A DNA stretch of 51,316 bases from Altibacter sp. Its GTDB lineage: Bacteria; Bacteroidota; Bacteroidia; Flavobacteriales; Flavobacteriaceae. Where the stretch lies: contig NZTP01000057.1 in NCBI GenBank assembly GCA_002696485.1, forward strand, positions 1 through 51,316, given 5' to 3'. The notes below the pieces were generated by a model. That model had not been told where the DNA came from. It saw nothing but the letters and a program-made list of their open reading frames with translations, and did not search any database. Within the stretch, counting starts at the first letter, position 1. Each line of letters begins with the position of its first letter. Positions 3,077 to 37,289 of this stretch are shown in pieces. The position numbers were made by a program, and so were the translations under genes.

Positions 3077-3102
3077 CAATCATTCATCAATCAAGCTTTT
3101 CT

Positions 3103-3127
3103 CATCCCTCTCCGGGCGGGAGGGATG
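3103..3127. repeat. Intergenic hairpin element inside the ECF operon
   Basis: CATCCCTC (3103-3110) and GAGGGATG (3120-3127) are perfect inverted repeats around a GC-rich loop, TCCGGGCGG. No T-run follows, so it is not a standard terminator. It resembles the 'CCCTCTCC...GGAGAGGG' dispersed intergenic repeats that I recall from flavobacterial genomes. It could attenuate expression or protect mRNA between the membrane protein and the outer-membrane protein. Confidence 0.5.
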
Positions 3128-3156
3128 CCGGAAGAGCACTAAATCAAAATCACAGT

Positions 3157-12334: not shown

Positions 12335-12365
12335 TAACCAAGGAACAAGCGTAACGGCTAAACAG

Positions 12366-12683
12366 ATGAAGAAGAGCTTTTACAATATCATGAAAGGAAA
12401 ATTCTTAATAAGTGATGATGCTTTTAAGAACTGGCGCTTTATCATCTTCCTGTCGGTGTTGGCGCTAATCATGATCGCAAGCTCCCATAGTGCCGATAAA
12501 AAAGTGCATCGAATTGCGCAACTCAACAACGAGGTAAAGGAGTTAAAAAGTGAATATGTTGATGTGCGCATGCGACTCATGCAAACAAAGATGGAAAGCA
12601 AGATCATAGCGGCGATGGCCCGACGGGGACTACAACCTTCGGTCACGCCTCCGCAAAAGATCAAGATAACAACAAAAAAGTAA
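12366..12683 (+). CDS. ftsL: FtsL-like division protein
   Basis: A 105-aa bitopic membrane protein. The cytoplasmic N terminus is 'MKKSFYNIMKGKFLISDDAF'. One membrane segment is at about 24-40 (RFIIFLSVLALIMIASSH), followed by a periplasmic coiled coil ('VHRIAQLNNEVKELKSEYVD') and a basic tail. Size, topology and place between rsmH and ftsI fit FtsL, which with FtsQ and FtsB activates FtsWI. The start at 12366 is chosen because the longer frame from 12303 overlaps rsmH and adds an unrelated peptide. Sequence similarity to proteobacterial FtsL is weak, so the name rests on synteny and topology. Confidence 0.85.
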   Translation: MKKSFYNIMKGKFLISDDAFKNWRFIIFLSVLALIMIASSHSADKKVHRIAQLNNEVKELKSEYVDVRMRLMQTKMESKIIAAMARRGLQPSVTPPQKIKITTKK

Positions 12684-12687
12684 CGCG

Positions 12688-14688
12688 GTGGCCATTGAGG
12701 AAAAGAACATATTGAACCGCTTGTATTTTGTCGCCGGATGTATGTTCGTCTTTGCGATAGCTGTTACTGTGAATTTGATCAAAATTCAATTTGTGGAAGG
12801 GGAGAAGTACAGAGATCTTGCGCTCAAGAACACCACAAAGAACTTTACGATCCCGGCAAATCGGGGAAATGTATATGCAGATGACGGCAGTCTGTTGGCA
12901 ACATCGGTACCTAAATACGATATCCGTTTTGACGCCGTGACTGTGTCTCCCGAAAACTTCAAAGAACACCTAGTGCCGCTTTCCAAAGAACTTTCCAAGA
13001 TGTTTGGCAAGCCTGCTTCATTCTATCAAAACAGTTTCCGGAAAGCACGCGCCAACAAGAACCGATACATGTTGGTTGCAAAGAATCTGGGGTATTCAGA
13101 CTATATACGTGTTAAAAAAATGCCTCTGTTCCGTTTGGGGCCCTACAAAGGAGGGATCATAGTAGAACAGCGCACGGTACGGGAGCATCCCATAGGGAAA
13201 ATCGCTCAACGTACTGTCGGGGATGAAGCGTATGACAGACCGGGATACTATGCGGTGGGTCTGGAAGGAGCATTTCATGAATTATTAAAAGGCAAGGAAG
13301 GACACCGATTAAAACAAAAGATCGCTAAAGGACAATGGAAGCCTGTGTACGACGATAATGAGGTGGAGCCACAGGATGGTTTCGATATCGTATCTACCAT
13401 TAATGTGAACATTCAGGATATTGCACATCATGCTCTTTTAAAGCAATTGGAATATTACGAAGCCGAGCACGGAACGGTGATCGTAATGGAAGTGGCGACC
13501 GGTGAGATTAAAGCGGTCTCCAATTTAGGTCGGACCAAGGATGGTACGTATTACGAGAAATTGAATTACGCTATTGGCGAATCGCACGAACCCGGCTCTA
13601 CATTCAAGGTGATGGCACTCATGGCTGCGTTGGAAGATAAAGTGATCGACACGTCTACTGTTGTAGATACCAAGGAGGGTGTAAAAAGTTTCTATGGTAG
13701 AAAGATTTATGATTCGCATCGCGGAGGCTTCGGAAAGATTTCTGCAGCCAAAGCATTAGAGGTCTCTTCCAACATTGGTTTAGCGACCATTATTGATGAG
13801 CACTATGCCGCCAATCCGAAAAAATTGATCGATCGCTTTAAAAATTGGCATCTTACAGAAAAAACGGGCGTTGCTATAAAGGGAGAAGGAGAGCCCTTTA
13901 TTCCGGAACCCGGTCACAGCAAATGGTCTAAGAATGCCCTGCCATCTATTTCTTACGGATACAACCTTCGGCTCACCCCACTACAAACCTTGAATTTTTA
14001 CAACACCATTGCCAATAACGGTGTCATGGTAAAACCTCGCTTCATCAAGGAAGTCCGCGCTTGGAATCGGAAAGTGGAAAGCTACGATACCAAAGTGATC
14101 GATTCCAAGATCTGTTCAGACGAAACCTTGAAAAAGATCCAAGAGATCCTTAAAAATGTAGTGAAGCGTGGTACGGGTAAATCCTTGTATTCGCCTCATT
14201 TCTCTATGGCAGGAAAAACAGGGACCGCACAAACGGAATATTGGATGGACGATTGGCGCGAGAACCGACGGTATGTTTCTTCCTTCGCGGGCTATTTTCC
14301 GGCTGAAAAACCAAAATACTCCTGCATTGTAGTGATACATAAACCCAGCATTAAAAAGGGGTATTACGGGGCAGATGTCTCGGGGCCGGTCTTTCAGCGT
14401 ATTGCGCAAAAGATCTTTACAGATGCTCCAACGGTGGCAGAGATAGCTAGTATCGATACTTCAGATCCTGCCATAACCAAAGATTTTGAGAACTACTATG
14501 CCAAGGTGCAGACCCGACACGAGAAAATTCCCAATGTAAAAGGAATGGCCGGAATGGATGCTGTATCTCTTTTGGAAAATCTAGGGTTGAAAGTAAAAAT
14601 TGAGGGCAATGGTACCGTGACCTCACAATCGATAGAACCGGGAGAGCTTTTGAAACAAGGCACACAAATACTATTAAAATTATCGTGA
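12688..14688 (+). CDS. ftsI: Septal peptidoglycan transpeptidase FtsI (PBP3 type) with PASTA domain
   Basis: A 666-aa class B penicillin-binding protein that cross-links septal peptidoglycan. One membrane anchor at about 12-33, then the pedestal domain ('IPANRGNVYADDGSLLATS') and the transpeptidase with SxxK at Ser304-Lys307 ('EPGSTFKV'), SxN at Ser360-Asn362 and KTG at 510-512 ('AGKTGTAQT'). A C-terminal PASTA domain is at about 612-666 ('PNVKGMAGMDAVSLLENLGL'). The start is GTG at 12688, four bases after ftsL. It shares GTGA with murE. Confidence 0.96.
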   Translation: MAIEEKNILNRLYFVAGCMFVFAIAVTVNLIKIQFVEGEKYRDLALKNTTKNFTIPANRGNVYADDGSLLATSVPKYDIRFDAVTVSPENFKEHLVPLSKELSKMFGKPASFYQNSFRKARANKNRYMLVAKNLGYSDYIRVKKMPLFRLGPYKGGIIVEQRTVREHPIGKIAQRTVGDEAYDRPGYYAVGLEGAFHELLKGKEGHRLKQKIAKGQWKPVYDDNEVEPQDGFDIVSTINVNIQDIAHHALLKQLEYYEAEHGTVIVMEVATGEIKAVSNLGRTKDGTYYEKLNYAIGESHEPGSTFKVMALMAALEDKVIDTSTVVDTKEGVKSFYGRKIYDSHRGGFGKISAAKALEVSSNIGLATIIDEHYAANPKKLIDRFKNWHLTEKTGVAIKGEGEPFIPEPGHSKWSKNALPSISYGYNLRLTPLQTLNFYNTIANNGVMVKPRFIKEVRAWNRKVESYDTKVIDSKICSDETLKKIQEILKNVVKRGTGKSLYSPHFSMAGKTGTAQTEYWMDDWRENRRYVSSFAGYFPAEKPKYSCIVVIHKPSIKKGYYGADVSGPVFQRIAQKIFTDAPTVAEIASIDTSDPAITKDFENYYAKVQTRHEKIPNVKGMAGMDAVSLLENLGLKVKIEGNGTVTSQSIEPGELLKQGTQILLKLS

Positions 14689-16148
14689 TACTGCTTAAAG
14701 ACATACTCTATAAGGTAACGATCGAAAAAGTGATCGGGAATACCTCTGTGGCAGTCACGAATCTTGAATTCGACTCTAGGAATATAGGGCTGAACGATGT
14801 GTTCGTGGCGGTACGGGGGACTCAAACCGATGGGCATGATTTTATAAAAATGGCAACCAATAAGGGAGCGATCGCTATTATTTGTGAAGTCCTTCCGGAC
14901 ATGATCATTAATGGGATCACATACGTGCAGGTAGTGGACGCGCAACGGGCACTGGCTTTAATGGCTGCTAATTACTACGAGAATCCTTCCGAAGCAATTA
15001 AACTAATTGGCGTTACGGGCACCAACGGCAAAACAACGGTAAGCTCATTATTATATAATCTTTTTAAAGCAGCGGGTTATGAAGTAGGATTGCTGTCAAC
15101 TGTGAGGATTATGGTGGGGAATGAGGAGCACAAGGCTACCCATACGACCCCCGATTCTTTAACGATCAATAAGTATTTGCGCGACATGGTTGATGCAGGT
15201 GTCACATATTGTTTTATGGAAGTGAGCTCCCATGGGATCCATCAAAAGCGTACAGAAGGACTTCATTTTGCCGGAGGTATCTTCACTAATCTGTCGCATG
15301 ATCATTTGGATTATCACAAGGATTTTGCCGAGTACAGGGATGTTAAAAAGAAGTTTTTTGACCAGCTTCCGAAGACAGCATTCGCACTGGTCAATACCGA
15401 CGATAAGAATGGTCCGGTGATGCTTCAAAACACACGAGCTAAAAAATACACATACGCGCTCAAGTCGTATGCAGACTATAAAGTTCAAATTTTAGAGAAT
15501 CAATTTACAGGATTGCTTCTGAAGATAAACAACAGCGAGTTATGGGTAAAACTCATAGGTTCCTTCAATGCCTATAACATGCTGGCCATCTACGCAACAG
15601 CTGATCTTTTAGGGTTAGAAACACTGGAGATCCTTCAGTTAATGAGCACACTGGAAAGTGTCGATGGCCGCTTCCAATATCGTGTGTCACCTACCAACAT
15701 TACCAGCATTGTGGATTACGCGCATACACCGGACGCATTGCAGAATGTATTAGAAACAATCAATAGTATACGAACCGGGAACGAAGAACTCATCACCGTT
15801 GTGGGATGTGGTGGAGACCGTGATACGCAAAAACGACCCAAGATGGGGCAGATAGCAGCCGCCCTGAGTACCAAGGTCATTTTTACCAACGATAATCCTA
15901 GAAGTGAAGACCCAGACACTATTATAAAGCAGATCGAAGCAGGAGTATCGCCGGAACACTATAAGAAAATAATTTCCATTACAGACAGGAAACAGGCTAT
16001 TAAAACGGCTTGCCAACTAGCAAAAGACGGAGATATCATTCTCGTAGCCGGGAAGGGACATGAGACCTATCAGGAGATCAAAGGAGAGCGTTTCGATTTT
16101 GACGATTTTAAAATAGTGAACGAATATATCAATGCCCTAAATAAGTAG
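14685..16148 (+). CDS. murE: UDP-MurNAc-tripeptide ligase MurE (meso-DAP adding)
   Basis: A 487-aa Mur ligase. The ATP-binding loop 'GVTGTNGKTT' is at 109-118, 'EVSSHGIHQKR' and 'FTNLSHDHLDYHKD' follow, and 'DYAHTPDAL' and 'VVGCGGDRDTQKRPKMGQIA' lie in the C-terminal half. 'DNPRSEDP' at 403-410 carries the DNPR motif typical of meso-diaminopimelate-specific enzymes, which predicts DAP-type peptidoglycan. The start is GTG at 14685, overlapping the ftsI stop by four bases (GTGA). murF does not follow as it does in E. coli. Confidence 0.97.
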   Translation: MILLKDILYKVTIEKVIGNTSVAVTNLEFDSRNIGLNDVFVAVRGTQTDGHDFIKMATNKGAIAIICEVLPDMIINGITYVQVVDAQRALALMAANYYENPSEAIKLIGVTGTNGKTTVSSLLYNLFKAAGYEVGLLSTVRIMVGNEEHKATHTTPDSLTINKYLRDMVDAGVTYCFMEVSSHGIHQKRTEGLHFAGGIFTNLSHDHLDYHKDFAEYRDVKKKFFDQLPKTAFALVNTDDKNGPVMLQNTRAKKYTYALKSYADYKVQILENQFTGLLLKINNSELWVKLIGSFNAYNMLAIYATADLLGLETLEILQLMSTLESVDGRFQYRVSPTNITSIVDYAHTPDALQNVLETINSIRTGNEELITVVGCGGDRDTQKRPKMGQIAAALSTKVIFTNDNPRSEDPDTIIKQIEAGVSPEHYKKIISITDRKQAIKTACQLAKDGDIILVAGKGHETYQEIKGERFDFDDFKIVNEYINALNK

Positions 16149-16151
16149 ATC

Positions 16152-17384
16152 ATGCTGTATTATTTGTTTGAATATTTAGAAAGAACCTACCAACTACCGG
16201 GGGCCGGACTGTTTCAGTTCATCACTTTTCGGGCAGCATTGGCGGTGATTCTTTCCTTATTTATCGCAGCCGTCTACGGTAAGAAGATCATAAATTACTT
16301 GCGACGCAAGCAGATGGGTGAGACCATACGCGATCTTGGGTTGGAGGGGCAGAGTGAAAAGGCGGGGACGCCTACCATGGGAGGGATCATTATTATTTTG
16401 GCGACGGTTGTGCCTGTGTTGCTTTTTGCACGCCTAGAGAATATCTATGTGATCTTATTGCTCATAACGACGCTTTGGATGGGAACGATTGGTTTTATAG
16501 ATGACTATCTAAAAAAATTCAAGAACGATAAAGCAGGTCTCGCAGGACGGTATAAGGTTGTAGGGCAAGTAGGTTTGGGAATTATTGTCGGGGCGACTAT
16601 GTTCTTCCATCCGGATATCACCGTAAAGCGGGAAAAAGTCAATCCGGTGAACAGCACCGAATCCATCACTCAAAATTCTCCGCGGGAGTTCTATGATTCC
16701 GAAAAGACATTATTGACCACAATCCCTTTTGTAAAAGAAAATGAGTTTAATTACGAACGTCTTATCGCCTGGGCGGGACCGGATTATACGAAATATGCTT
16801 GGATCATTTTTATACCCATCGTGATTTTTATTATCACTGCAGTATCGAATGGAGCCAACCTCACCGATGGGATCGATGGTCTTGCCGCCGGAAGTTCGGC
16901 CATCATTGCATTAACTCTTGCCATTTTTGCATGGGTCTCCGGAAATGTAATTTTTTCAGACTATCTCAACATCATGTACCTCCCCAATACAGGAGAGCTT
17001 ACCATTTTTATAACAGCTTTCGTTGGGGCACTCATTGGTTTTCTTTGGTACAACGCCTATCCGGCTCAGGTCTTTATGGGAGATACAGGCAGTTTGACCA
17101 TAGGGGGTATTATTGCGGTGATCGCTATCGCAATTCGCAAAGAGTGGCTTATTCCTATTCTATGTGGGATCTTTTTAATGGAGAACCTCTCGGTGGTGTT
17201 ACAGGTAAGCTGGTTCAAGTATACAAAGAAGAAGTTTGGTGAAGGTCGACGCATTTTTAGGATGTCGCCGCTACACCACCATTATCAAATAAAAGGGTTT
17301 CACGAAAGTAAGATCGTAACACGATTTTGGATCGTTGGAATTTTTCTGGCCATTCTTACCATCGTTACATTAAAAATAAGATAA
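16152..17384 (+). CDS. mraY: Phospho-MurNAc-pentapeptide transferase MraY
   Basis: A 410-aa polytopic membrane enzyme making lipid I. Catalytic stretches are '[20 protein letters not shown]', '[19 protein letters not shown]', '[16 protein letters not shown]' and '[19 protein letters not shown]'. It is about 50 residues longer than the E. coli enzyme. The extra part is a polar stretch at about 157-205 ('[20 protein letters not shown]' onward) between membrane helices. The insertion sits where an extracytoplasmic loop is expected. The stop is two bases before the murD GTG. Confidence 0.97.
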
Positions 17385-17386
17385 GG

Positions 17387-18724
17387 GTGGCAGATAGATT
17401 GGTCATATTGGGTGCAGGAGAAAGTGGGGTAGGAACCGCCATTTTAGGAAAGAAGAAGGGGTTTGAGGTGTTTGTTTCAGACTTCGGAAAAATTAAGGAC
17501 AAATACAAACAAGTTCTTTTACATCATGAGATCGAATGGGAAGAAGGAGGTCACACCGAAGCTACATTACTTTCAGCAACGATAGTAATGAAAAGTCCGG
17601 GTATCAAGGATGCCGCTCCTATAGTACTAACACTGAGGGAAAAAGGCATTCCTGTAATTTCTGAAATAGAGTTTGCTGCTGCTTACACTGAAGCTACCAT
17701 CGTAGGAATTACCGGAAGCAACGGAAAGACCACGACAGCAACGCTTACCTACCAATTACTTAAGGACGGGGGGCTAAACGTTGCTTTAGGAGGAAATATA
17801 GGAAAGAGTTTTGCCGAACAGGTAGCCGAAGATAAATATGCACATTTTGTCTTGGAATTAAGCAGTTTCCAGTTGGACGGGATCGTAAAGTTTCATCCGC
17901 ACATTGCAGTGCTTACAAATTTAAGTCCGGACCATTTGGACCGATATGATTACAAATATGAAAATTATATCGCTGCCAAATTCCGAATCGCAATGAATCA
18001 GACCGCCGATGATTATTTTATTTACGATGCCGATGATGAAGAAATAGCAAAGTGGCTAGCCACGCACCCCATACGATCTAAAAAGATACCTTTTTCAGTA
18101 AGAAAGGAACTCGAAGAAGGAGCATACATAAAAAATAAACAAATAATACTAACAATAGATAATACCAATCTCACTATGCCAATTGCAACATTAGGATTAC
18201 AAGGTCAACATAATATCAAGAACGCTATGGCGGCGTCTACGGTAGCAACGCTGCTAAAAATTAGAAAAGCCACGATTCGGGAAAGCTTAGAAAGTTTTCA
18301 AGGGGTGGAACATCGTTTGGAAAAAGTACTTCGAATCAACAAGGTACTTTATATTAATGATTCAAAAGCTACCAATGTCAACGCTACTTTTTACGCGTTG
18401 GACAGTATGGAAACGCCTACCGTATGGATCGTTGGCGGTGAAGATAAAGGAAATGACTATAGTGAATTGCTACCCTTGGTCAACGAAAAAGTGAAAGCGA
18501 TCATCTGCTTAGGAGTAGATAACGAAAAGATCGTTAATGCATTTGGGAATGTTGTAGATGTTATGGTGGAAACTCAGTCGATGCAGGATGCAGTGCAGAT
18601 AGCCTATCGAATGGCAGACAGAGGAGAGACTGTCCTGCTTTCTCCTGCTTGCGCCAGTTTTGACCTTTTTGAGAATTACGAGGACCGTGGTAGACAATTT
18701 AAAGAGGCTGTTCGAAACCTATAG
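17387..18724 (+). CDS. murD: UDP-MurNAc-L-alanine:D-glutamate ligase MurD
   Basis: A 445-aa Mur ligase adding D-Glu. The N-terminal nucleotide-binding 'ILGAGESGVGTAILGKKKG', the ATP loop 'GITGSNGKTT' at 107-116, 'LELSSFQLDGI', 'LTNLSPDHLDRYDYKYENY' and 'YINDSKATNVNATFYALDSM' are all present. I start at the GTG at 17387 (MADRLVILGAGES), two bases after the mraY stop. An in-frame ATG at 17327 lies inside mraY and would add a spurious 20-residue leader. Nine bases separate it from ftsW. Confidence 0.96.
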   Translation: MADRLVILGAGESGVGTAILGKKKGFEVFVSDFGKIKDKYKQVLLHHEIEWEEGGHTEATLLSATIVMKSPGIKDAAPIVLTLREKGIPVISEIEFAAAYTEATIVGITGSNGKTTTATLTYQLLKDGGLNVALGGNIGKSFAEQVAEDKYAHFVLELSSFQLDGIVKFHPHIAVLTNLSPDHLDRYDYKYENYIAAKFRIAMNQTADDYFIYDADDEEIAKWLATHPIRSKKIPFSVRKELEEGAYIKNKQIILTIDNTNLTMPIATLGLQGQHNIKNAMAASTVATLLKIRKATIRESLESFQGVEHRLEKVLRINKVLYINDSKATNVNATFYALDSMETPTVWIVGGEDKGNDYSELLPLVNEKVKAIICLGVDNEKIVNAFGNVVDVMVETQSMQDAVQIAYRMADRGETVLLSPACASFDLFENYEDRGRQFKEAVRNL

Positions 18725-18733
18725 GATGAAATA

Positions 18734-19924
18734 ATGCGTGCTATTTTTCAACATATTCAAGGAGATAAAGCAATCTGGGCAGTTGTAGGACTGCTGGCGC
18801 TCTTTTCCTTCTTGCCTGTGTATAGTGCCAGTAGTAATTTGGCCTATTTGTATGGCGATGGAAGCACACTTCCGTATCTGCTGAAGCATTTTGCGCACTT
18901 ACTTTTAGGTTTTGCCATCCTTTACGGAGTGCACAAGATTCCCTATCATTATTTCAGAGGGCTTTCGATCATCGCACTGCCAATTGTTATTATTTTGCTA
19001 TTGATCACCTTATCTGAAGGCACGACCGTAGAAGGAGCCAATGCGAGTAGATGGATACGCGTACCTTTTGTGGGGGTTACGTTTCAAACATCGACATTGG
19101 CATCTGTCGTATTACTCACCTATGTGGCCCGCTATCTTTCTCGAATTAAAGATAAGGCAATTACTTTTAAAGAGACCATAGTGCCGCTGTGGCTCCCGGT
19201 CTTTATTGTGTTAGCCTTGATATTACCTGCCAATCTTTCAACAACCGCAATTCTTTTCAGTATGGTGGTGATGCTGGTCTTTGTGGGGGGCTATCCTATT
19301 AAATACTTAGGCATTATTTTGGGAGCGGGACTGTTGTTTCTCACCTTGTTCATTACTACTGCAAAAGCCTTTCCTACGTTATTTCCCAATCGTGTGGATA
19401 CTTGGATGAGTCGTATTGATAATTTCACCAACGGGGAAGACACGGAAGCCGATTACCAAATTGAAAAGGCGAAGATAGCCATCGCTTCGGGCGGTGTGAC
19501 CGGTTTAGGACCTGGTAAAAGCATACAGAAGAACTTTTTACCTCAATCTTCTTCCGATTTCATCTATGCGATTATTGTAGAAGAATTTGGAATACTTGGA
19601 GCACTTTTTCTCATGTCATTGTATCTGTTTCTCTTGTTCAGACTCGTGATCGTCGCATATAAGGCCGAGTCGGTCTTCGGGAAATTATTGGTGATAGGAG
19701 TGGGACTGCCTATTGTGTTTCAAGCCCTTATCAATATGGGAGTTGCAGTCGAATTGTTTCCGGTCACAGGAAAGACCCTTCCGCTTATAAGCAGCGGTGG
19801 AACTGCGATCTGGATGACGTGTTTGGCATTAGGGATGGTGCTAAGTGTAAGTGCTAAGCGAGAAGTGGTTAAAAAAGAAGAACAAGAAGAGAACCCTTTA
19901 GATATATTGAGTGAAGCCCTATAG
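18734..19924 (+). CDS. ftsW: Septal peptidoglycan polymerase FtsW (SEDS family)
   Basis: A 396-aa polytopic SEDS glycosyltransferase that polymerises lipid II at the septum together with FtsI. There are about ten hydrophobic segments. SEDS signatures are '[19 protein letters not shown]', '[20 protein letters not shown]', '[13 protein letters not shown]' and '[19 protein letters not shown]'. The C terminus is charged ('[17 protein letters not shown]'). It overlaps murG by 14 bases. Confidence 0.97.
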
Positions 19925-21008
19925 ATTCATCATAAGTGGAGGAGGAACCGGAGGTCATATCTACCCGGCCATAGCGATTGCGAACGAATTGCGCATCCGC
20001 TATCCGGAAGCCGAATTTCTTTTTGTTGGTGCTAAGGACAGAATGGAAATGCAAAAAGTGCCTCAGGCAGGCTATCCTATTGAAGGGCTCTGGATCTCCG
20101 GATTGCAGCGAAATTTGACTGTTAAGAATCTTTTATTTCCCCTAAAGCTGGCTTCTAGCCTTATAAGGGCTCGAAGCATTCTGAAAAAATTTAAACCTAA
20201 CGTTGCTATAGGGACCGGAGGTTATGCCAGTGCACCCTTGCTTCGAGTTGCATCCATGAGAAGAATTCCTTGTTTGATCCAAGAGCAGAACAGTCATGCC
20301 GGGATCACCAACAAATGGTTGGGCAGTAAGGTGGAACGCATTTGTGTGGCTTATGAGGGAATGGATGCATTCTTCCCTTCAGAAAAAATAATCCTTACCG
20401 GCAACCCGGTACGGCAGGACCTGCTTGCGGTGGGATCAAAACGTGCCGAAGCTCAGACTTTTTTTAAGTTGGACGCTGCAAAGAAAACATTACTTGTGTT
20501 AGGCGGTAGTCTCGGTGCCAAGCGCATTAATGAATTGATCGCTACCTCGCTTCCCTTTTTCGAGCGTCATGACCTGCAAGTGATCTGGCAGTGTGGAGCG
20601 CATTATGAAACGACCTACAAAGACGAAGGCACCCGGTTGGTTCAAGTACATGCGTATTTGAACCGTATGGACTTGGCCTATGCTGCGGCCGATATCATTA
20701 TATCGCGAGCAGGCGCCTTATCGGTTTCTGAGTTATATCTTGTAGGAAAACCTGTATTATTCATTCCCTCGCCTAACGTGGCAGAAGATCACCAAACAAA
20801 GAACGCGATGGCAATTTCAGAAAAAAATGCAGCGTTAGTATTAAAGGAGAGTGAGCTAAACGATAAGTTCGAAGCAGAATTTTCAGCGCTTTTGGAGTCG
20901 GAAACTACCCGCAAGCTTCTTTCGGAAAATATCAAGGAACTGGCAAAGCCTAACGCGACTCAAGAGATCGTTGCAGAGATCGAAAAACTATTAAATAACG
21001 CGCCATGA
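19911..21008 (+). CDS. murG: UDP-GlcNAc:lipid I transferase MurG
   Basis: A 365-aa GT-B glycosyltransferase converting lipid I to lipid II on the inner membrane face. The glycine-rich '[16 protein letters not shown]' is at 9-24, '[11 protein letters not shown]', '[15 protein letters not shown]' and 'TGNPVRQDL' follow, and the C-terminal UDP-sugar site '[11 protein letters not shown]' and '[12 protein letters not shown]' are complete. The start is GTG at 19911 within the end of ftsW. The stop overlaps the murC ATG (ATGA). Confidence 0.97.
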
Positions 21009-22360
21009 AAGAGATGAAGGACATAGAGGCCCTATATTTCGTGGGTATTGGAGGCATCGGGATGAGTGCCTTGGCGCGCTATTGTAAATTATTGGGCAAA
21101 ACTGTGTCGGGATACGATAAAACACCTACCGATCTTACCGCAGCGTTGATGGACGAAGGTATTGATGTGACGTATGTAGATGCCGTTAGTGAAATTCCTG
21201 AAGCATTTCAGAATAAAGAAAAAACACTAATCGTCTATACCCCGGCAATCCCGGGCTCAAGTCGACTTTTGCATTATTTTACTTCGGAAGGGTATACAGT
21301 GGTGAAACGCTCGTCCCTTCTTGGTGCGGTCACAGAGAACTCTTTGTGTCTTGCGGTGGCCGGTACACACGGAAAAACAACAACATCGGCGATCTTAGGG
21401 CATCTTTTGGCTGCGTGTGACATGCCCGTCACGGCTTTTCTTGGGGGTATTGCCGAAAATTACGGCAGTAATTTTATAAGTAACGGGACAGCGATCACAG
21501 TAGTGGAAGCCGATGAGTTTGATCGTTCGTTCCTCACACTTCGACCCGATATTGCTTGTGTCACATCGATGGACGCGGATCATTTGGATATTTACGGTAA
21601 TTCTGAAACCATTGAAGAAGCATTTAAAAGTTTTGCCGCATTGCTTCCCGATACTACTAATTTGTTGTTCCGAAAAGGCTTACCGCTGAAAGGGCAAACC
21701 GTAGCAGTGGGGGAGACAGCAGATTTTGAAGCGCAAAACATTCGAATCGAAGATGGAAGTTATCGTTTCGACCTGAAGACACCCAATACAATACTACGAG
21801 ATCTTGTTTTTAATCTGCCCGGACATCATAACCTACACAATGCTGTAACTGCTTTGGGCATGGCCATTCTTTCCGGTATCCCAACACCCGGCCTGCCCAA
21901 AGCTTTACAAAACTTCAAAGGCGTGCAAAGACGCTTTTCTTATAAGATAAAACGTGAGGACTTGGTACTCATTGATGATTATGCGCACCATCCCACTGAG
22001 ATCGATGCATTACATCAGGCTGTGGAAGAAATGTATCCGCAGGATAGGAAATTGATCGTTTTTCAGCCCCACTTATTCAGCAGGACCAAAGATTTTGCTT
22101 CGGGATTTGCACAAAGCCTTTCTAAGTTTGATGAGATCTTACTACTCGATATTTATCCGGCGCGGGAAGAACCTATGGAGGGAATTACGTCTGAATGGTT
22201 GCTTGGTCAAATTACCGCATCGAACAAACAACTTATTACTAAAGAAGAATTGGTCCATAAGATACAGGCATCGCATTGCCGCATTAAAATGCTTGTAGGT
22301 GCGGGCGATATTGGAGCCGAAGTAGGAAAAATCACAAAAATATTGAGTCATGAAAGTTAA
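21005..22360 (+). CDS. murC: UDP-MurNAc:L-alanine ligase MurC
   Basis: A 451-aa Mur ligase for the first peptide residue. The N-terminal '[20 protein letters not shown]', ATP loop 'GTHGKTT' at 120-126, '[19 protein letters not shown]', 'DADHLDIYG' and '[10 protein letters not shown]' match the family. It starts four bases before the murG stop and ends 11 bases into ftsQ, so translation of three genes is coupled. Confidence 0.97.
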
Positions 22361-23066
22361 TTGGGGACTTATCAAATTTGTGGTTGTAAGTGGACTCGTC
22401 GTCTTCTTGTTCAGTTTTTCAAAAAGCAGAAACGAAAACAGGAAATTGACAGAGATAAAAATTGAATTTATAGATGAGAACGACCCTTTTATCACAGTAA
22501 ACACGGTTAATAAATTGTTAATACAAAATAAGGACAGCGTTACGAGTATCGATAAAGAAACTTTAGTTTTGAAAGAGATGGAAGATAGGCTGCTGAAAAA
22601 CCCTATGATCCGTGATGCCGAGGTATTTGTAACTGTAGACGGGGTGTTGGGGGCGAAAATTGAACAACGCGAGCCCATTGGAAGAGTTGCTGCTTCGCCA
22701 CATTTTTATTTGGATAGTGACGGAAAAAAGATGCCTTTGTCATCGGTTTATGCAGCCAGAGTGCCCTTGATCACCGGAACATCGGTATCGGATTTTTCAG
22801 AAGTAACGCCCCTGCTTCTAAAAATTAAGGAAGATCCTTTTATGAAGAGTAGTGTCGTGGGGGTCCATGTACACAGTAACGGGACCGTCGATCTGAGATT
22901 GCGAAAACACGATTGTAAGGTGTTGTTTGGGAAACCAACGGCAATCGAGAAGAAATTTCAGAATTTCAAGGCATTTTATAAGAAAACGAAACAGGACAGT
23001 ACGCTATCGAACTACGGTTTGGTGAATTTACAATTTGAGAATCAAGTGGTAGCCACAAAAAAATAA
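22350..23066 (+). CDS. ftsQ: Division protein FtsQ
   Basis: A 238-aa bitopic membrane protein. A short basic N terminus and one membrane segment at about 5-24 (GLIKFVVVSGLVVFLFSFSK) are followed by a periplasmic POTRA-like part ('IDENDPFITVNTVNKLLIQN', 'LLKNPMIRDAEVFVTVDGVL', 'REPIGRVA') and the FtsQ/DivIB domain. It recruits and regulates the FtsLB-FtsWI complex. The start is ATG at 22350 overlapping murC. It is shorter than E. coli FtsQ by about 40 residues. Four bases separate it from ftsA. Confidence 0.93.
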   Translation: MKVNWGLIKFVVVSGLVVFLFSFSKSRNENRKLTEIKIEFIDENDPFITVNTVNKLLIQNKDSVTSIDKETLVLKEMEDRLLKNPMIRDAEVFVTVDGVLGAKIEQREPIGRVAASPHFYLDSDGKKMPLSSVYAARVPLITGTSVSDFSEVTPLLLKIKEDPFMKSSVVGVHVHSNGTVDLRLRKHDCKVLFGKPTAIEKKFQNFKAFYKKTKQDSTLSNYGLVNLQFENQVVATKK

Positions 23067-23070
23067 GGGA

Positions 23071-24399
23071 ATGGAAAACGACAACATAGCTGTAGGTTTA
23101 GATATTGGAACTACCAAGATTGTTGCCATGATTGGTAGGGAGAATGAATATGGAAAAATGGAGATTCTGGGCATTGGTAAATCCAAAAGCCTTGGCGTCC
23201 ATCGCGGTGTTGTAAATAACATAACCCAAACCATTCAGTCCATTCAACAAGCCGTGCAAGATGCCGAAACATCTTCGGGGATCAAGATCAAAGAAGTTGT
23301 GGTGGGTATTGCAGGACAACACATTCGAAGCCTGCAGCACAGTGATTATATTACAAGAACCAATAGTGACGAAGTGATCGATGAAGGGGATATCGATCGC
23401 CTGTGCAATCAAGTGCATAAATTGGTGATGCTGCCCGGAGAAGAGATTATTCATGTATTGCCACAGGATTTTAAGGTAGACGGACAGGCAGAAATCAAGG
23501 AGCCCATTGGTATGTACGGAGGTCGTTTGGAAGCTAATTTTCACGTGGTCGTAGGGCAAGTCTCTTCCATTCGCAACATTGGAAGGTGTGTAAAAAGCTC
23601 CGGATTGGAATTATCAGGCATAACCCTGGAGCCTTTGGCTTCTGCAAATGCTGTGTTGAGTCAAGAAGAGAAAGAAGCCGGAGTAGCATTGATCGATATT
23701 GGTGGAGGCACCACAGACTTAGCCATCTTTAAAGATGGCATCATACGTCACACAGCGGTCATTCCTTTTGGGGGCAACGTGATTACTGAAGACATCAAAG
23801 AAGGCTGCTCCATCATAGAAAAACAAGCAGAGCTGTTAAAGATAAAGTTTGGTTCGGCGTGGCCTGGTGAAAATAAAGATAATGAAATTGTTTCCATTCC
23901 GGGATTACGGGGTCGAGAGCCAAAAGAGATCACGTTGAAGAACCTCTCAAAGATCATCCATGCTCGGGTCGTGGAGATCATTGAACAGGTGTACTTAGAG
24001 ATCAAGAACTACGGCCATGAAGAACAAAAGAAGAAATTAATAGCTGGTATTGTATTGACAGGTGGTGGTGCGCAACTACAGCATATCAAGCAATTGGTGG
24101 AGTACATCACCGGAATGGATACTCGAATTGGATATCCCAATGAGCACTTGGCAGGGGATACAGACAGTGAAACGACCAGTCCTATGTATGCCACAGCGGT
24201 TGGATTGGTGTTGAACAGCTTGAAAAGCAAACCAAAATTTAAACAAGCAACGTCTTTTTCTACCATGGAAGCCTCTCAGGAGACTCCCGAGGACCAGAAC
24301 ATGGACGAAGAAGAAATTGAAGAGACACCAAAAGAGCGGAAACGCTTTTTTGATAAATGGGCTGAGAAGTTTAAGGAATTCTTAGACAACGCAGAATAA
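23071..24399 (+). CDS. ftsA: Division protein FtsA
   Basis: A 442-aa actin-like ATPase that tethers FtsZ to the membrane. Phosphate-binding motifs are 'GLDIGTTKIVAMIG' at 9-22 and 'ALIDIGGGTTDLAIF' near 208, and the adenosine motif is 'GIVLTGGGAQLQHIKQLVEY'. The C-terminal part is acidic ('EEEIEETPKERKRFFDKWAE') and ends with an amphipathic helix, 'KRFFDKWAEKFKEFLDNAE', suitable as membrane-targeting sequence. A 42-base gap separates it from ftsZ. Confidence 0.97.
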   Translation: MENDNIAVGLDIGTTKIVAMIGRENEYGKMEILGIGKSKSLGVHRGVVNNITQTIQSIQQAVQDAETSSGIKIKEVVVGIAGQHIRSLQHSDYITRTNSDEVIDEGDIDRLCNQVHKLVMLPGEEIIHVLPQDFKVDGQAEIKEPIGMYGGRLEANFHVVVGQVSSIRNIGRCVKSSGLELSGITLEPLASANAVLSQEEKEAGVALIDIGGGTTDLAIFKDGIIRHTAVIPFGGNVITEDIKEGCSIIEKQAELLKIKFGSAWPGENKDNEIVSIPGLRGREPKEITLKNLSKIIHARVVEIIEQVYLEIKNYGHEEQKKKLIAGIVLTGGGAQLQHIKQLVEYITGMDTRIGYPNEHLAGDTDSETTSPMYATAVGLVLNSLKSKPKFKQATSFSTMEASQETPEDQNMDEEEIEETPKERKRFFDKWAEKFKEFLDNAE

Positions 24400-24441
24400 A
24401 CCCAATTAAAATGAAATTAAAAACCTCACAAAATTAAGTAT

Positions 24442-26487
24442 ATGAGCAGCAACACAGAATTTGACAACATTTCTTTTGATCTGCCAAAAAACCAATCCAA
24501 CGTGATAAAGGTCATTGGCGTGGGAGGTGGCGGAAGTAATGCCATCAACCACATGTTTAGCCAGGGTATCAAGGGCGTGGATTTCGTTATTTGCAACACC
24601 GATGCCCAAGCACTCGAAAATAGTCCTGTACCTGTAAAGATCCAACTTGGCGTGTCTTTAACCGAAGGGCTGGGAGCAGGCGCCAACCCAAAGATCGGTG
24701 AGCAATCGGCTGTGGAAAGCCTTGAAGAGATCAAGAACATGCTTGCTACCAATACCAAAATGATCTTTATTACCGCAGGGATGGGCGGTGGTACCGGTAC
24801 CGGTGCTGCGCCTATCATCGCTAAAATGGCCAAGGAATTAGACATCCTAACCGTTGGGATCGTCACAATCCCTTTTCAGTTTGAGGGGAAGATACGCAAC
24901 GATCAGGCACAGATAGGTGTGGAGAATTTGCGTCAGAATGTAGATTCGTTGGTTGTGATAAATAACAATAAATTACGTGAGGTGTATGGAAACTTGGGTT
25001 TTAAAGCCGGTTTTTCCAAAGCCGATGAAGTATTGGCCACGGCTGCCCGAGGAATTGCCGAGGTCATTACCCATCACTACACGCAAAACATAGATTTACG
25101 GGATGCGAAAACCGTACTTTCAAACAGCGGTACTGCCATCATGGGAAGTGCCAATGCGATAGGAGAGAACAGAGCACACGTAGCCATTAGTAAAGCTCTA
25201 GACTCGCCCTTGTTGAATGATAATAAGATTCGAGGCGCAAAGAATGTGCTGTTGTTAATCGTTTCAGGAAGCGAGGAAATCACGATTGACGAGATAGGAG
25301 AAATTAGTGATTATATACAAGATGAGGCAGGTCACAGTGCTAATATCATCATGGGGGTTGGGGAAGATGAAACCTTAGACGGCGCGATCTCTATTACCGT
25401 GATCGCCACAGGATTCAACGCCGAGCAACAACATGAGATCGTGAATACCGAATCCAAGAAGATTATCCATACGTTGGAAGAAGAGCAACGCGCAGAGCAA
25501 GTATTAACTACCAAGCCTTCGGCAGGACCTGTAGAATTGCCGAAACAAGGAAATGCCAAGCCTAGTGCAGCACCTTCGGAAAAAGCACCCATTATAAAGC
25601 ATACTTTGTTTGAAGCGGAAGAAGAAACGCCCAAACCACAAATGAGCCTTCCTTTTGACGGTTACATTAAGACTTCAGAATTGATTAAGAATATTGACGT
25701 TCAATATGAAGCGATCGATATCCATCATTTGGCAGAGTTCGAGCAAATCCTTATCAACGAGATTGATGTGAACGATTTTGTGATCGTTGAACCAAAACCT
25801 AGAGAAGAAGTACGTAAGCCGATTGTTTCTGAAAAAGCTTCAGAAGAAGAATATACCTATACAAAACCGAAGCAAACTTCCGAAGCAGATGAGCAAATGC
25901 TCATGTTCGACCTTCCATTGCACAGCTCCGAAGGTGAGACTGAAAAGAAACAGAAGAAAGAAGAAGAGGCTGAGGTTGCCACTTCACGGGTGGAAGAGAT
26001 CGAAGTAAAGGACCACGTGGAGATCATTCCGGTAACTGAAGTGTCCGGTGAAGGGATCAAACGATACAGTTTAGATGATTACCAGGAGGTTGAAAACATG
26101 CTTAATGAAGCAAAACCCGCTGCGAAAGGTACAGAGACTCTTGAAGAAGAAGAGATTGTTTTCGAGAAAAAGACAGTTGCAGCTCCCGAAGCTCCCGCAA
26201 CCGATTTGGACGAGCCTGCCGACCCGATGAACTCTCCTATTTCTAAAATATTGAGAGATCGATCTGAAGAGCGTAAGAAGAAGATGAAGGAGTTCAATTA
26301 TAAGTTTAGAAACAGTGCCTCGAAAATTGAGGATATTGAAAAACAACCTGCCTATAAGCGAATGGGTATTGATTTGGATGAAACTTCCGACTCAAAAGTA
26401 AGTATCTCACGAACGTCTGTAAATACGGATGATGACGATATTGAATTGCGATCCAATAACTCTTTCCTTCACGATAATGTAGACTAG
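24442..26487 (+). CDS. ftsZ: Division GTPase FtsZ with a very long C-terminal linker
   Basis: A 681-aa tubulin homologue forming the Z ring. The GTPase domain is about 1-320: 'GVGGGGSNAINHM' near 27, the tubulin signature 'GGGTGTGAAP' at 115-124, and the T7 loop 'GFKAGFSKADEVLATAARGI'. Residues about 340-650 are a low-complexity Glu/Lys/Pro-rich linker, several times longer than the ~50 residues of E. coli. A conserved C-terminal peptide, 'IELRSNNSFLHDNVD', probably binds FtsA. It is the last gene of the operon; a terminator follows at 26534. Confidence 0.97.
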   Translation: MSSNTEFDNISFDLPKNQSNVIKVIGVGGGGSNAINHMFSQGIKGVDFVICNTDAQALENSPVPVKIQLGVSLTEGLGAGANPKIGEQSAVESLEEIKNMLATNTKMIFITAGMGGGTGTGAAPIIAKMAKELDILTVGIVTIPFQFEGKIRNDQAQIGVENLRQNVDSLVVINNNKLREVYGNLGFKAGFSKADEVLATAARGIAEVITHHYTQNIDLRDAKTVLSNSGTAIMGSANAIGENRAHVAISKALDSPLLNDNKIRGAKNVLLLIVSGSEEITIDEIGEISDYIQDEAGHSANIIMGVGEDETLDGAISITVIATGFNAEQQHEIVNTESKKIIHTLEEEQRAEQVLTTKPSAGPVELPKQGNAKPSAAPSEKAPIIKHTLFEAEEETPKPQMSLPFDGYIKTSELIKNIDVQYEAIDIHHLAEFEQILINEIDVNDFVIVEPKPREEVRKPIVSEKASEEEYTYTKPKQTSEADEQMLMFDLPLHSSEGETEKKQKKEEEAEVATSRVEEIEVKDHVEIIPVTEVSGEGIKRYSLDDYQEVENMLNEAKPAAKGTETLEEEEIVFEKKTVAAPEAPATDLDEPADPMNSPISKILRDRSEERKKKMKEFNYKFRNSASKIEDIEKQPAYKRMGIDLDETSDSKVSISRTSVNTDDDDIELRSNNSFLHDNVD

Positions 26488-33561: not shown

Positions 33562-34224
33562 CTATCTGCTTACCAGATCCCGCAATCCTGAAATTGTCTC
33601 AACAGGGTTGGAACTTCCAAAAACATAGCTTCCTGCGACTAGCACATCGGCTCCCGCAGCAACAAGTTGTGCTGCATTGCTATTGGTTACGCCACCATCG
33701 ATCTCAATTTTGGTGGTTGCTCCTTTTTCTGAGATCATAGCGCGAAGTTGCTTTACTTTATCATACGTATTTTCAATAAAGCGCTGTCCTCCAAAACCGG
33801 GGTTCACGCTCATCATGCACACCAGATCGATGTCTACAATAGTATCGCGAAGTAATTCTACGGAAGTATGCGGATTCAAAGCCACGCCTGCCTTCATTCC
33901 TTCTGCTTTAATAGCTTGTAAGGTCCGGTGTAAATGTGTGGACGCTTCATAATGTACCGTCAGGGTGTCTGCACCCAGTAAGGCAAAATCTTTAATATAG
34001 CGTTGCGGTTCTACGATCATCAAATGTACGTCCAAAGGTTTCTTGGCATATCTGGAAATTGCTTCTATTACAGGCATTCCAAAGGATATATTAGGAACAA
34101 ACACCCCATCCATAACGTCCAAATGGAACCAGTCTGCATCGCTGGCATTCACCATGTCAATGTCACGTTGTAAGTTGGCAAAATCGGCAGCAAGGATCGA
34201 AGGGGCAATAAAGGTTTTGTTCAT
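33562..34224 (-). CDS. rpe: Ribulose-phosphate 3-epimerase
   Basis: A 220-aa TIM-barrel enzyme interconverting ribulose-5-P and xylulose-5-P in the pentose phosphate pathway. Metal and substrate motifs are 'APSILAADFANLQRDI', 'FHLDVMDGVFVPNISFG', 'DVHLMIVEPQRY', 'MMSVNPGFGGQRF' and 'KIEIDGGV'. The ATG overlaps the stop of the upstream BLUF gene in ATGA, so its translation is coupled to that photoreceptor gene. Confidence 0.97.
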   Translation of the reverse strand: MNKTFIAPSILAADFANLQRDIDMVNASDADWFHLDVMDGVFVPNISFGMPVIEAISRYAKKPLDVHLMIVEPQRYIKDFALLGADTLTVHYEASTHLHRTLQAIKAEGMKAGVALNPHTSVELLRDTIVDIDLVCMMSVNPGFGGQRFIENTYDKVKQLRAMISEKGATTKIEIDGGVTNSNAAQLVAAGADVLVAGSYVFGSSNPVETISGLRDLVSR

Positions 34225-34625
34225 ATCGCTAACAAAAAAGGATGGATCAATCGGTTAATTTTACTGGAAAAAGAAGTTTTGTTGTTGAAGACATCGAGAT
34301 AATTTTTAATCTCAGATAATTCTTTTTGAGTCTTCACGACGTTAAACTTCGAATTGTAAGTGCCAAAGATAGGTTTTTTAATAGGATGATGTATCAAGGT
34401 TTCAATTCGATCGTGACGGTGATCCTCACAAATTGTGTCAAAGAGCGTGGTGATTTGTTTTTTTTCACCCTCTAAGACCTGAAAGAAATTACCAAACCCG
34501 TAGAGTAGGATACCCGTGATGTTCTCATTCGTATTATGACGTTGGGTTTTAGCAAAGATTGCTTCTATTTCTTCCTCTGAGAGCCCTTGTCTCGCTTTAC
34601 TTACATAACAAATAGTATGGTTCAT
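34221..34625 (-). CDS. BLUF-domain blue-light photoreceptor, copy 1
   Basis: A 134-aa short-type BLUF protein that should bind flavin. The flavin-contact triad is present with canonical spacing: Tyr7 ('HTICYVSKA'), Asn31 (24 later, before 'ENITGILLY') and Gln49 (18 later, 'GNFFQVLEGE'). The beta-5 positions that are usually Trp and Met are Tyr90 and Ser92 ('FGTYNSKF'). About 40 C-terminal residues form capping helices. No effector domain is attached, so output must be through a partner. It lies 80 bases after copy 2 and overlaps rpe by four bases. A weak promoter-like TATCTTG is in the 80-base gap. Confidence 0.9.
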   Translation of the reverse strand: MNHTICYVSKARQGLSEEEIEAIFAKTQRHNTNENITGILLYGFGNFFQVLEGEKKQITTLFDTICEDHRHDRIETLIHHPIKKPIFGTYNSKFNVVKTQKELSEIKNYLDVFNNKTSFSSKINRLIHPFLLAI

Positions 34626-34705
34626 GGTAACGTTCGTTAGTTTTCAAGATACAAAAATGTAAGAAATTGTAAAAATCATGTATTCGCGTAGCAGCATTCA
34701 AAAAA

Positions 34706-35101
34706 TTATAATAAGAAGGGTTCTAGAATTCCTAACATGCTTTTGGATAGCGTTTTGATCTCCACCGTAGCATTTAGATAGTCTTTTAAGTTGTTGAGGT
34801 CTGACTTGTTCTTGACGACACTAAACCCGGATTTATAATCACTAAAGGTTCGTTCTTCAATGGATTTGTCCAATATCACAAAAATACTGGCATGTCTCGA
34901 ATCTTCTTTGATAAGATCGAACAGCGGACCTATCACTTCCTTTTTTCCTTCTAAAACCTGAAGAAAATTACCGTCAAGGTACAACAGTATACCGGTGATA
35001 TTTAAGGAGTGGTTTTTGCGCTGCGTGGTCTCGAACAATTCCTCAATGTCCTTGAGATCAAGATGAGGGACTTTATTGCTCAAATAGCAAATTGTATGCA
35101 T
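34706..35101 (-). CDS. BLUF-domain blue-light photoreceptor, copy 2
   Basis: A 131-aa BLUF protein clearly paralogous to its neighbour. The triad is Tyr6 ('HTICYLSNK'), Asn30 and Gln48 ('NITGILLYLDGNFLQVLEG'). The Trp and Met positions are again Tyr89 and Ser91 ('FSDYKSGF'). It has the same short length and C-terminal helical tail, without an output domain. The start is ATG at 35101. The gene begins just beyond the rpoD terminator, so it probably has its own promoter; TATATTTA lies in that terminator's T-run on the coding strand. The duplication is old, since the DNA is well diverged. Confidence 0.9.
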   Translation of the reverse strand: MHTICYLSNKVPHLDLKDIEELFETTQRKNHSLNITGILLYLDGNFLQVLEGKKEVIGPLFDLIKEDSRHASIFVILDKSIEERTFSDYKSGFSVVKNKSDLNNLKDYLNATVEIKTLSKSMLGILEPFLL

Positions 35102-35133
35102 GTGTGGTTAGAAAGGTTGTTGAGGTAAATATA

Positions 35134-35163
35134 TAAAAAAACCTCCGGTAATCAGCCGGAGGT
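35134..35163 (-). terminator. Terminator after rpoD
   Basis: ACCTCCGG (35141-35148) and CCGGAGGT (35156-35163) pair around a 7-base loop. On the minus strand a run of seven T follows the stem. It separates rpoD from the BLUF genes. Confidence 0.85.
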
Positions 35164-35224
35164 CATTCATCAATCAAAAAACGAACAGTTATTTTTAACT
35201 GTAAGTTATCTTTATAGGATACGC

Positions 35225-36088
35225 TTATCCCAAATACGTTTTCAATATCTTACTTCTGGAAGTATGCTTTAAACGACGTATCGCTTTTTCCTTGATCTGT
35301 CGAACACGTTCACGAGTTAGATCAAAGGTTTCGCCAATCTCTTCCAGGGTCATAGGGTGTTGATCTCCTAAGCCAAAATACAGACGGATCACATCGGCCT
35401 CTCTTGGCGTAAGAGTTTCCAGAGCACGCTCTATTTCAGTTCTTAGTGATTCATGCAATAAGGAACGGTCGGGGTTCGGGGATTCTCCACTCCGCAATAC
35501 ATCATACAAATTGGAGTCTTCTCCTTCCACCAAAGGGGCATCCATCGATACGTGACGGCCCGAATTCTTCATGGATTCTTTCACATCGTTGATCGTCATG
35601 TCCAATTCCTTGGCAATTTCTTCGGCCGAAGGCGGGCGTTCATGTGCTTGCTCCAAAAAGGCAAACGTCTTGTTGATCTTGTTGATGCTGCCAATCTTGT
35701 TCAATGGCAGACGAACAATACGAGATTGCTCAGCCAAGGCTTGTAAGATCGACTGGCGAATCCACCAAACAGCATACGAAATAAATTTAAAACCACGCGT
35801 TTCATCAAAACGCTGCGCGGCTTTGATAAGACCGAGGTTCCCTTCATTAATAAGATCGGGTAGGGTTAATCCCTGATTTTGATATTGCTTTGCTACCGAT
35901 ACAACAAAACGTAGGTTCGCTTTGGTCAACTTCTCCAAAGCACGTTGATCCCCCGCTTTTATACGTTGTGCCAACTCTACTTCTTCGTCTGCGGTAATTA
36001 AGTCAACTTTTCCAATCTCCTGAAGGTACTTGTCTAAAGAAGCGGTTTCCCGGTTGGTGACCTGCTTCGTAATTTTAAGTTGTCTCAT
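35225..36088 (-). CDS. rpoD: Primary RNA polymerase sigma factor (sigma-70/SigA type)
   Basis: A 287-aa factor. Region 1.2 is '[20 protein letters not shown]', region 2 '[20 protein letters not shown]' to '[20 protein letters not shown]', region 3 '[20 protein letters not shown]', and region 4 '[20 protein letters not shown]'-like ('[19 protein letters not shown]') with '[20 protein letters not shown]'. It lacks region 1.1 and the non-conserved insert, as is usual for the Bacteroidota housekeeping factor that reads TTG/TAnnTTTG promoters. An AGGAG lies just upstream of the ATG, unusual in this phylum. An independent terminator follows. Confidence 0.96.
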
Positions 36089-36320: not shown

Positions 36321-37289
36321 TCAATTAAAATCCAACAGCTGCTTCGAGTCGATCCATTGCTCCAACGCACTTATTTTGGAATACAACGAATTAAAAAAGC
36401 GATGCTGCTCCTTTTCGCCGGCAGTATTCAACAATTTCGAATGCTGTAATTGTTTGTTCAAATATTCCGATGCCTGTTCGCAAAACAGGACATCGCCGGT
36501 GCTAACATAAGACAACAGGGTAAACGGAACGAACACTCTATTTCCTTTTGGAGTGTTCACCAACACATTGTTATTCATTAGCAAAAGTTCATTGAAATAC
36601 AACGTATATCCTTTGGCCCCATCGGCTATTTTTCCATGAAGATGCTTCAGTAAGCCTCGTAATTCATTACATATTTGCTTTGCATCGGAAACCGATACGA
36701 GACCGGCTTCGTAATAAAAGTGGATCTGTTTTAACGTGCTATTTATAGTGGTGGTGTCCCAGATCTCGGTGGTGCTGACCGATTCATACAAATCTCCGAG
36801 TCGCTTGGCAGATCTCAATACATCCAGCCCGGGATGAAAACTTTCAAAAGGAATGTCATGAAACCGGGGATGTAGCAACTTCAACCATACGTATATTTTG
36901 AACTTGGCCAACAAAGTACCGGTAAGGGTATAGAAAAGAGGGAGGTCCTTAGCGGAGTAGGTAAGGGAACTTTCGGGATGAGCGAGCAAGGGAGCTAAAG
37001 ACGCATACGAATTTTCAAAATAGTGATGCAATTCGCTTTCCGAAGCTATCGTAGCGGTCTTGCTCATAATAACCCGCTCAGGATCCTGCGCAATATACAG
37101 CTGATCTAAAGAAATTGAAAAATGTTTTGCCAATATGATACTTTCTTCTAAGGAGAGTTTGGCTTTCAAACTGGTGCGTCGATGCGCTGCATCATAGCTT
37201 ATGTCCAACAGCATTGCTACGGTATCCAGTAATGAAGTGCCTGCCTCCAATTTCGAGGCGATCTCAGAAAAGAGGTTTTCCTGCATCAT
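36321..37289 (-). CDS. HTH-domain regulator with large helical C-terminal domain
   Basis: A 322-aa soluble protein. Residues ~5-65 ('LFSEIASKLEAGTSLLDTVA', 'LLDISYDAAHRRTSLKAKLS', 'LEESIILAKHFSISLDQLY') have the repeat of an XRE/BetR-like helix-turn-helix. The remaining ~250 residues are mainly helical and hydrophobic-patterned ('YAGL'-like 'FHYEAGLVSVSDAKQICNEL' region), without a known enzyme motif. The start is ATG 37289 or 37286. It is divergent from an outer-membrane protein gene with a 112-base spacer, so it may control it. The ligand is unknown and the family is only loosely recognised. Confidence 0.75.
   Translation of the reverse strand: MMQENLFSEIASKLEAGTSLLDTVAMLLDISYDAAHRRTSLKAKLSLEESIILAKHFSISLDQLYIAQDPERVIMSKTATIASESELHHYFENSYASLAPLLAHPESSLTYSAKDLPLFYTLTGTLLAKFKIYVWLKLLHPRFHDIPFESFHPGLDVLRSAKRLGDLYESVSTTEIWDTTTINSTLKQIHFYYEAGLVSVSDAKQICNELRGLLKHLHGKIADGAKGYTLYFNELLLMNNNVLVNTPKGNRVFVPFTLLSYVSTGDVLFCEQASEYLNKQLQHSKLLNTAGEKEQHRFFNSLYSKISALEQWIDSKQLLDFN

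Follow-up and report, generated by a model that had tools for sequence, protein, structure and literature searches.

In published accounts of BLUF photoreceptors, the Met of strand beta-5 is called highly conserved (PMC5899715); reviews describe it as a conserved residue essential for signalling, and both Trp and Met are reported to be highly conserved in a survey of 1,048 marine BLUFs. Mutants of AppA, PixD and bPAC at the Trp or Met site keep the red shift, and their signalling or dark recovery is lost or changed. AppA and bPAC require both sites for signalling but not for the red shift, and loss of AppA Trp104 or Met106 disrupts signalling with the red shift intact (PMC4630285). In PixD, the M93A variant retains the red shift, shows no conformational change and functions as if fixed in the signalling state (PMC5899715), and Trp91 is largely dispensable, with a W91F variant recovering about 50-fold more slowly (PMC5899715; PMC9853863). 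The W92A exchange in BlsA results in a lit-like state. Further background was drawn from PMC4844311, PMC6695109, PMC10799861 and PMC8805636, and one BLUF gene of Aquimarina longa is named in passing in PMC4603819. Among open-access papers, judged by titles and the starts of abstracts, no description of a flavobacterial BLUF clade without Trp and Met was found. Likewise, no open-access report of flavin binding, red shift or a light response was found for any member of such a clade.

The window analyzed here, the whole stretch of 51,316 nucleotides from the marine bacterium Altibacter sp. (Flavobacteriaceae), carries two BLUF genes on its reverse strand. Copy B (P0002, 131 aa, 34706..35101) is the first gene after an rpoD-like gene and is followed by copy A (P0001, 134 aa, 34221..34625). 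The initial annotation had described two short BLUF paralogues with an exactly spaced Tyr-Asn-Gln triad and with Tyr and Ser at the equivalents of AppA Trp104 and Met106, and both the open reading frames and all of these sites proved to be as claimed. In a profile search against Pfam BLUF (PF04940, curated cut-off of 25 bits), P0001 reached 91.8 bits (E 3e-26) and P0002 87.4 bits (E 7e-25), far above the cut-off in both cases. The relevant residues are Tyr7/Asn31/Gln49/Tyr90/Ser92 in P0001 and Tyr6/Asn30/Gln48/Tyr89/Ser91 in P0002, so that the spacing of +24/+42/+83/+85 from the first Tyr equals that given for AppA. At the Trp104 position, the codons lie at 34356..34358 (Tyr90, copy A) and 34835..34837 (Tyr89, copy B), and at the Met106 position at 34350..34352 (Ser92, copy A) and 34829..34831 (Ser91, copy B), all on the reverse strand. 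The Trp-x-Met site of AppA and of photoactivated-cyclase sequences aligns with both copies without a gap, and the profile alignment places the cyclase Trp-x-Met directly opposite Tyr-x-Ser. Neither Trp nor Met occurs at +83/+85: both proteins are free of Trp, the sole Met of P0001 is Met1, and P0002 contains only Met1 and Met122. Compared with the published relay, both copies thus have Ser in place of the beta-5 Met and Tyr in place of the semi-conserved beta-5 Trp. Over 130 aa the two copies share 45% identity, and the Altibacter assembly (95.8% complete) has no BLUF match besides them. Relative to Altibacter lentus, dN/dS was 0.044 for copy A (134 codons), 0.088 for copy B (131 codons) and 0.037 for the adjacent rpe (218 codons), values which are only rough because dS was high (0.77–1.11). 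Both BLUF genes of the window are under purifying selection.

The distribution of the replacement was followed in BLUF sequences from a Flavobacteriaceae sample and additional regions, a genus search, and 80 loci from a search seeded with the window proteins. From 217 rows, 200 distinct sequences were obtained, of which 193 with at least 80 aligned residues were kept and 7 short ones dropped. Of the 193 full-length BLUFs, 126 had Tyr or Phe at the first site and, at the second, a residue that was not Met but in most cases Ser or Thr. This count leans to the Y type, since the proteins of the window served as queries in the 80-locus search (86 of the 126 rows stem from this search and 40 from genome searches). 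The residue pairs at the Trp104/Met106 sites were YS (75), WM (62), YT (16), YF (13), YA (5), FN (5), FS (4), WL (4), YN (2) and seven types seen once each. The Flavobacteriaceae sample taken by itself comprised 199 genomes spread evenly over the family, 76 of them with a BLUF match. Met and Trp are called conserved in the published passages cited above, yet 37 of these 76 genomes carried only the Y/F type, 32 only the W type, 2 both, 1 the W type plus another type, and 4 only partial frames.

In background samples, Trp was mostly retained and the second site was almost always Met or Leu. A Bacteroidota sample of 395 genomes gave 57 distinct BLUFs with at least 80 aligned residues in newly fetched loci (WM 55, WL 1, YF 1), and the YF row came from a Flavobacteriaceae genome. 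Three relatives from the same order and outside Flavobacteriaceae keep Met in the alignments, two of them with Trp (L338, L345) and one with Arg (L346). Pseudomonadota, chosen as the phylum of the Burkholderiaceae genome at locus L114, were sampled with 70 loci (30 of the best-scoring and 40 more taken from lower places in the list); the 69 distinct rows were WM (58), WL (5), SM, VM, AM and FT (1 each), with 2 rows stopping short of the site. Loss of Trp alone therefore occurs outside the flavobacterial clade, and beyond that clade the FT row is the single case in these background sets where the second site holds neither Met nor Leu. The BLUF subfamily with these replacements that had been suggested for the Altibacter pair exists and is far wider than that pair. 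Judged by profile and triad, its proteins are BLUF members, and they make up a widespread flavobacterial clade that lacks both the Trp and the Met of the usual relay.

Phylogenies were calculated from short BLUF alignments (92–113 columns), in which many forks are unresolved, and the trees of 193 and 321 rows were built without the two trait columns. In the 193-row tree, one branch with an SH-aLRT of 98 united all 126 Y/F rows and a single W-M row, L065, and two changes of state were needed. Forcing the 126 Y/F rows together gave a likelihood 24 units above that of the free search, and the AU test did not reject their monophyly (p 0.828). In the 321-row tree, 127 flavobacterial Y/F rows formed an exclusive clade with a weak support of 78, and the Pseudomonadota FT row fell outside it. 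A 99-row tree that included the trait columns and, once thinned, retained 94 of the 126 members gave the clade a support of 96. The window copies both lie inside this one flavobacterial Y/F-x-S/T clade, and their common Y-x-S is best explained by descent within it and not by chance in two copies. The replacement marks one flavobacterial clade, which as an exclusive group is weakly supported.

The exceptional row L065 is a BLUF of Flavobacterium difficile (2995-3420, forward strand) with Trp and Met both present, and neither rpoD nor rpe was seen in the stretch examined there. It is placed inside the clade branch in the 193-row tree, outside the exclusive clade in the 321-row tree, and beside the clade on a weak fork (38) in the 99-row tree.

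Within the clade, the Tyr-Asn-Gln triad is present in 125 of 126 members, Ser8 in all 126 and Asp-x-Arg-His in 124, and the Tyr-to-Trp-site distance is 83 in 98 members, with small indels in 28. Five positions ahead of the Trp site, 63 of 66 W types have an Arg, versus 37 of the 126 clade members. Beyond the Met site, the clade proteins end in a tail with a median length of 43 residues, versus 53 in the W types. A long N-terminal extension is present in six W rows and in none of the clade members, whose longest open frame spans 195 residues, in agreement with the earlier claim that no output domain is attached. As a separate observation, W-type BLUFs of about 480–500 residues occur in some genomes of the family, with Flavobacteriaceae open frames of 482–499 residues at L032, L125, L140, L160 and L163. 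At L150 (1984-3426, forward strand), a W-type light-sensor/regulator fusion places an AraC-type HTH (residues 252–329) directly before a C-terminal BLUF (340–427).

At the Trp site, clade members have Tyr (113) or Phe (13); at the Met site, Ser is commonest (79), Phe (14), Ala (5), Val (2), Ile (1), Thr, Asn and Cys also occur, and Met is absent from all 126. Because the Met-site residue varies, Phe included, no single replacement chemistry is conserved. These counts bear on a conventional explanation, according to which signalling is of the ordinary PixD kind and Tyr and Ser merely stand in for Trp and Met, with nothing rewired. The prevalence of Ser, which could hydrogen-bond the Gln, would agree with this, as does the published dispensability of PixD Trp91; the side chains of Phe, Ala, Val and Ile, however, cannot form such a bond, and we regard this explanation as unlikely.

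The pair of the window sits in the usual, though not universal, setting of the clade, between an rpoD-like gene and rpe (33562-36088). The rpe gene (ribulose-phosphate 3-epimerase, 33562..34224, reverse strand) matches the NCBIfam equivalog TIGR01163 with 290.8 bits against a cut-off of 212.6, and its start is overlapped by the end of copy A by 4 bp (ATGA). The upstream neighbor (35225..36088, reverse strand) is a sigma-70 factor for which the best NCBIfam names are RpoD, although below the cut-offs of those models; among the matches listed, only that for the sigma-70 superfamily exceeded its cut-off. It is set off from copy B by a terminator-like hairpin and T run at its 3' side (35140..35164, reverse strand). 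Next to the rpoD-like gene, a 322-residue protein (36321-37289, reverse strand) without a Pfam match at E 0.01 is encoded, and proteins like it are encoded close to rpoD at some further flavobacterial loci. Elsewhere in the window, positions 10978-26487 (forward strand) hold what we take, from the list of open reading frames, to be a cell wall and division cluster running from mraZ to ftsZ.

Among 101 clade loci, some of them with short flanks, both rpoD-like gene and rpe were found on the same strand in 75, rpe only in 13, the rpoD-like gene only in 1 and neither in 12; restricted to the 83 loci whose flanks both reach 2 kb or more, the numbers were 66 for both, 8 for rpe only and 9 for neither. 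One or both neighbors thus accompany 89 of 101 clade loci versus none of 63 W-type loci, 36 of which have flanks below 2 kb. In L173, both genes are present but not adjacent; the rpoD-like/rpe pair is found on the other side, at a distance of several kb. Frame clustering of the 12 loci without rpoD and rpe gave no gene family common to at least 3 of them except BLUF, and the lack of a visible rpe there suggests that its adjacency is not required. For 88 loci, the distance from BLUF to rpe was −4 in 19, 0 to 30 in 17, 31 to 100 in 42 and more than 100 in 9, with rpe on the other side in one (L173). A terminator-like site was detected in all 67 rpoD-BLUF gaps shorter than 450 bases; shuffled gaps had one in 12 of 335 cases. 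With the limit at 1200 bases, all 71 gaps contained one, versus 2 of 75 coding control windows. None of the 48 BLUF-rpe gaps of 20–200 bases contained one. Going by this gene arrangement, the BLUFs are probably co-transcribed with rpe.

From 22 Flavobacteriaceae genomes picked for their lack of an intact BLUF, 21 had an rpe match, and in 16 of these the rpoD-like gene was near rpe within the stretch examined. In a genome of the same genus (G003), the two genes are about 145 bases apart with no BLUF. Since this neighborhood exists without BLUF, a standing rpoD-rpe pair has probably either gained the BLUFs or lost them, and the gene order may be mere inheritance. A functional link between the BLUFs and the rpoD-like gene was set aside on two counts, the terminator-like site in every rpoD-BLUF gap tested and the occurrence of the rpoD-rpe neighborhood without an intact BLUF.

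The initial annotation had also raised a heterodimer of the two copies. Copies A and B are adjacent, and 19 of 101 clade loci hold two or three copies, which speaks for an obligate heterodimer. The other 82 loci hold a single copy, and in the 99-row tree copy A belongs to a branch of 25 rows (support 99) and copy B to one of 10 rows (support 86). Because A-type relatives are the sole BLUF match in genomes G002, G015 and G066, and a B-type relative in G042, an obligate partnership is extremely improbable; an optional heterodimer is possible. A recent tandem duplication as the origin of the pair was discarded, given the different branches of the copies. Three clade BLUFs in a row are found at six Aquimarina loci (L046, L048, L049, L064, L078 and L093), each with one copy of the Phe-x-Ser or Phe-x-Asn type.

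The BLUF gene is often lost in Flavobacteriaceae: the four genomes of the genus contain 2, 2, 1 and 0 copies, and broken remnants lie between the rpoD-like gene and rpe at L189 (G011) and L190 (G054). At L082, the second tandem BLUF (3545-3988, forward strand) has a triad that reads Phe-Asn-Glu where Tyr-Asn-Gln is expected, and its beta-5 sites are Phe-x-Thr; with these residues it probably cannot photoswitch in the normal manner. Such losses, this one member without the triad, and the published behavior of the locked PixD M93A and the lit-like BlsA W92A could all be taken to mean that light signalling has disappeared from the clade, whose proteins would survive as flavin-binding or constitutively lit regulators in the manner of PixD M93A. 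The switching pair of Tyr6 and Gln48 is nevertheless retained in 125 of 126 members, Tyr6 would be expected to drift if light were irrelevant, and dN/dS is as low as 0.044 and 0.088, which makes a loss of light signalling a rather unlikely, though still respectable, explanation.

On balance, we consider it probable, with some reservation, that the copies are working single-domain BLUFs of one flavobacterial clade with an altered signal exit, co-transcribed with rpe. Copies A and B would act as blue-light switches without the Gln-Trp-Met relay, and the light signal would exit the flavin pocket along a different path, for instance an altered beta-5 contact, with the C-terminal tail, shorter by about 10 residues, as a candidate part of this exit. 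BLUF, BLUF and rpe would share one transcript separate from the rpoD-like gene, and candidate partners are Rpe or a diffusible regulator. By analogy with the published mutants, we infer that the clade keeps the red shift and differs in dark recovery; the rewired output and the shared transcript, too, we only infer. The initial annotation had proposed altered photochemistry. As the red shift survives in the published AppA, PixD and bPAC mutants while signalling or recovery is lost or changed, altered signal transfer is the better reading. Rpe as a partner is favored by gene order only, and the extended proposal of a new signal exit with Rpe as its direct target, through which blue light would adjust the pentose phosphate pathway in marine flavobacteria, seems decidedly unlikely to us. 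Independently of the partner, the clade offers a natural test of what Trp and Met really do in BLUF signalling, and the mostly Trp-free BLUF cores (116 of 126 members) could allow Tyr-to-flavin electron transfer to be studied without a competing Trp.

For comparison with known systems, the best solved-structure matches of the copies include AppA, Slr1694, Tll0078 and photoactivated cyclases. The Trp-less Ser/Val/Ala-x-Met BLUFs of Pseudomonadota (3 of 69 rows), presumably similar to BlrP1/YcgF, have Trp replaced as in the clade; they keep Met and have open frames of about 410–420 residues, whereas the flavobacterial clade lost both residues and is single-domain. The BLUF domain of AppA aligns ungapped with the copies through triad and beta-5 sites but differs by Trp104 and Met106, each described as needed for signalling, and by its further domains. 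BlsA of Acinetobacter is likewise a short BLUF without an enzyme domain; it differs by the presence of Trp92, whose loss reportedly leads to the lit-like state. PixD (Slr1694) and Tll0078 resemble the copies as single short-tailed BLUF domains with Tyr-Asn-Gln, and about 90 residues align with both copies. PixD is described as answering to PixE, and no gene resembling PixE stood out next to the window pair; at the beta-5 sites, PixD has Trp91 and Met93 where the window copies have Tyr and Ser.
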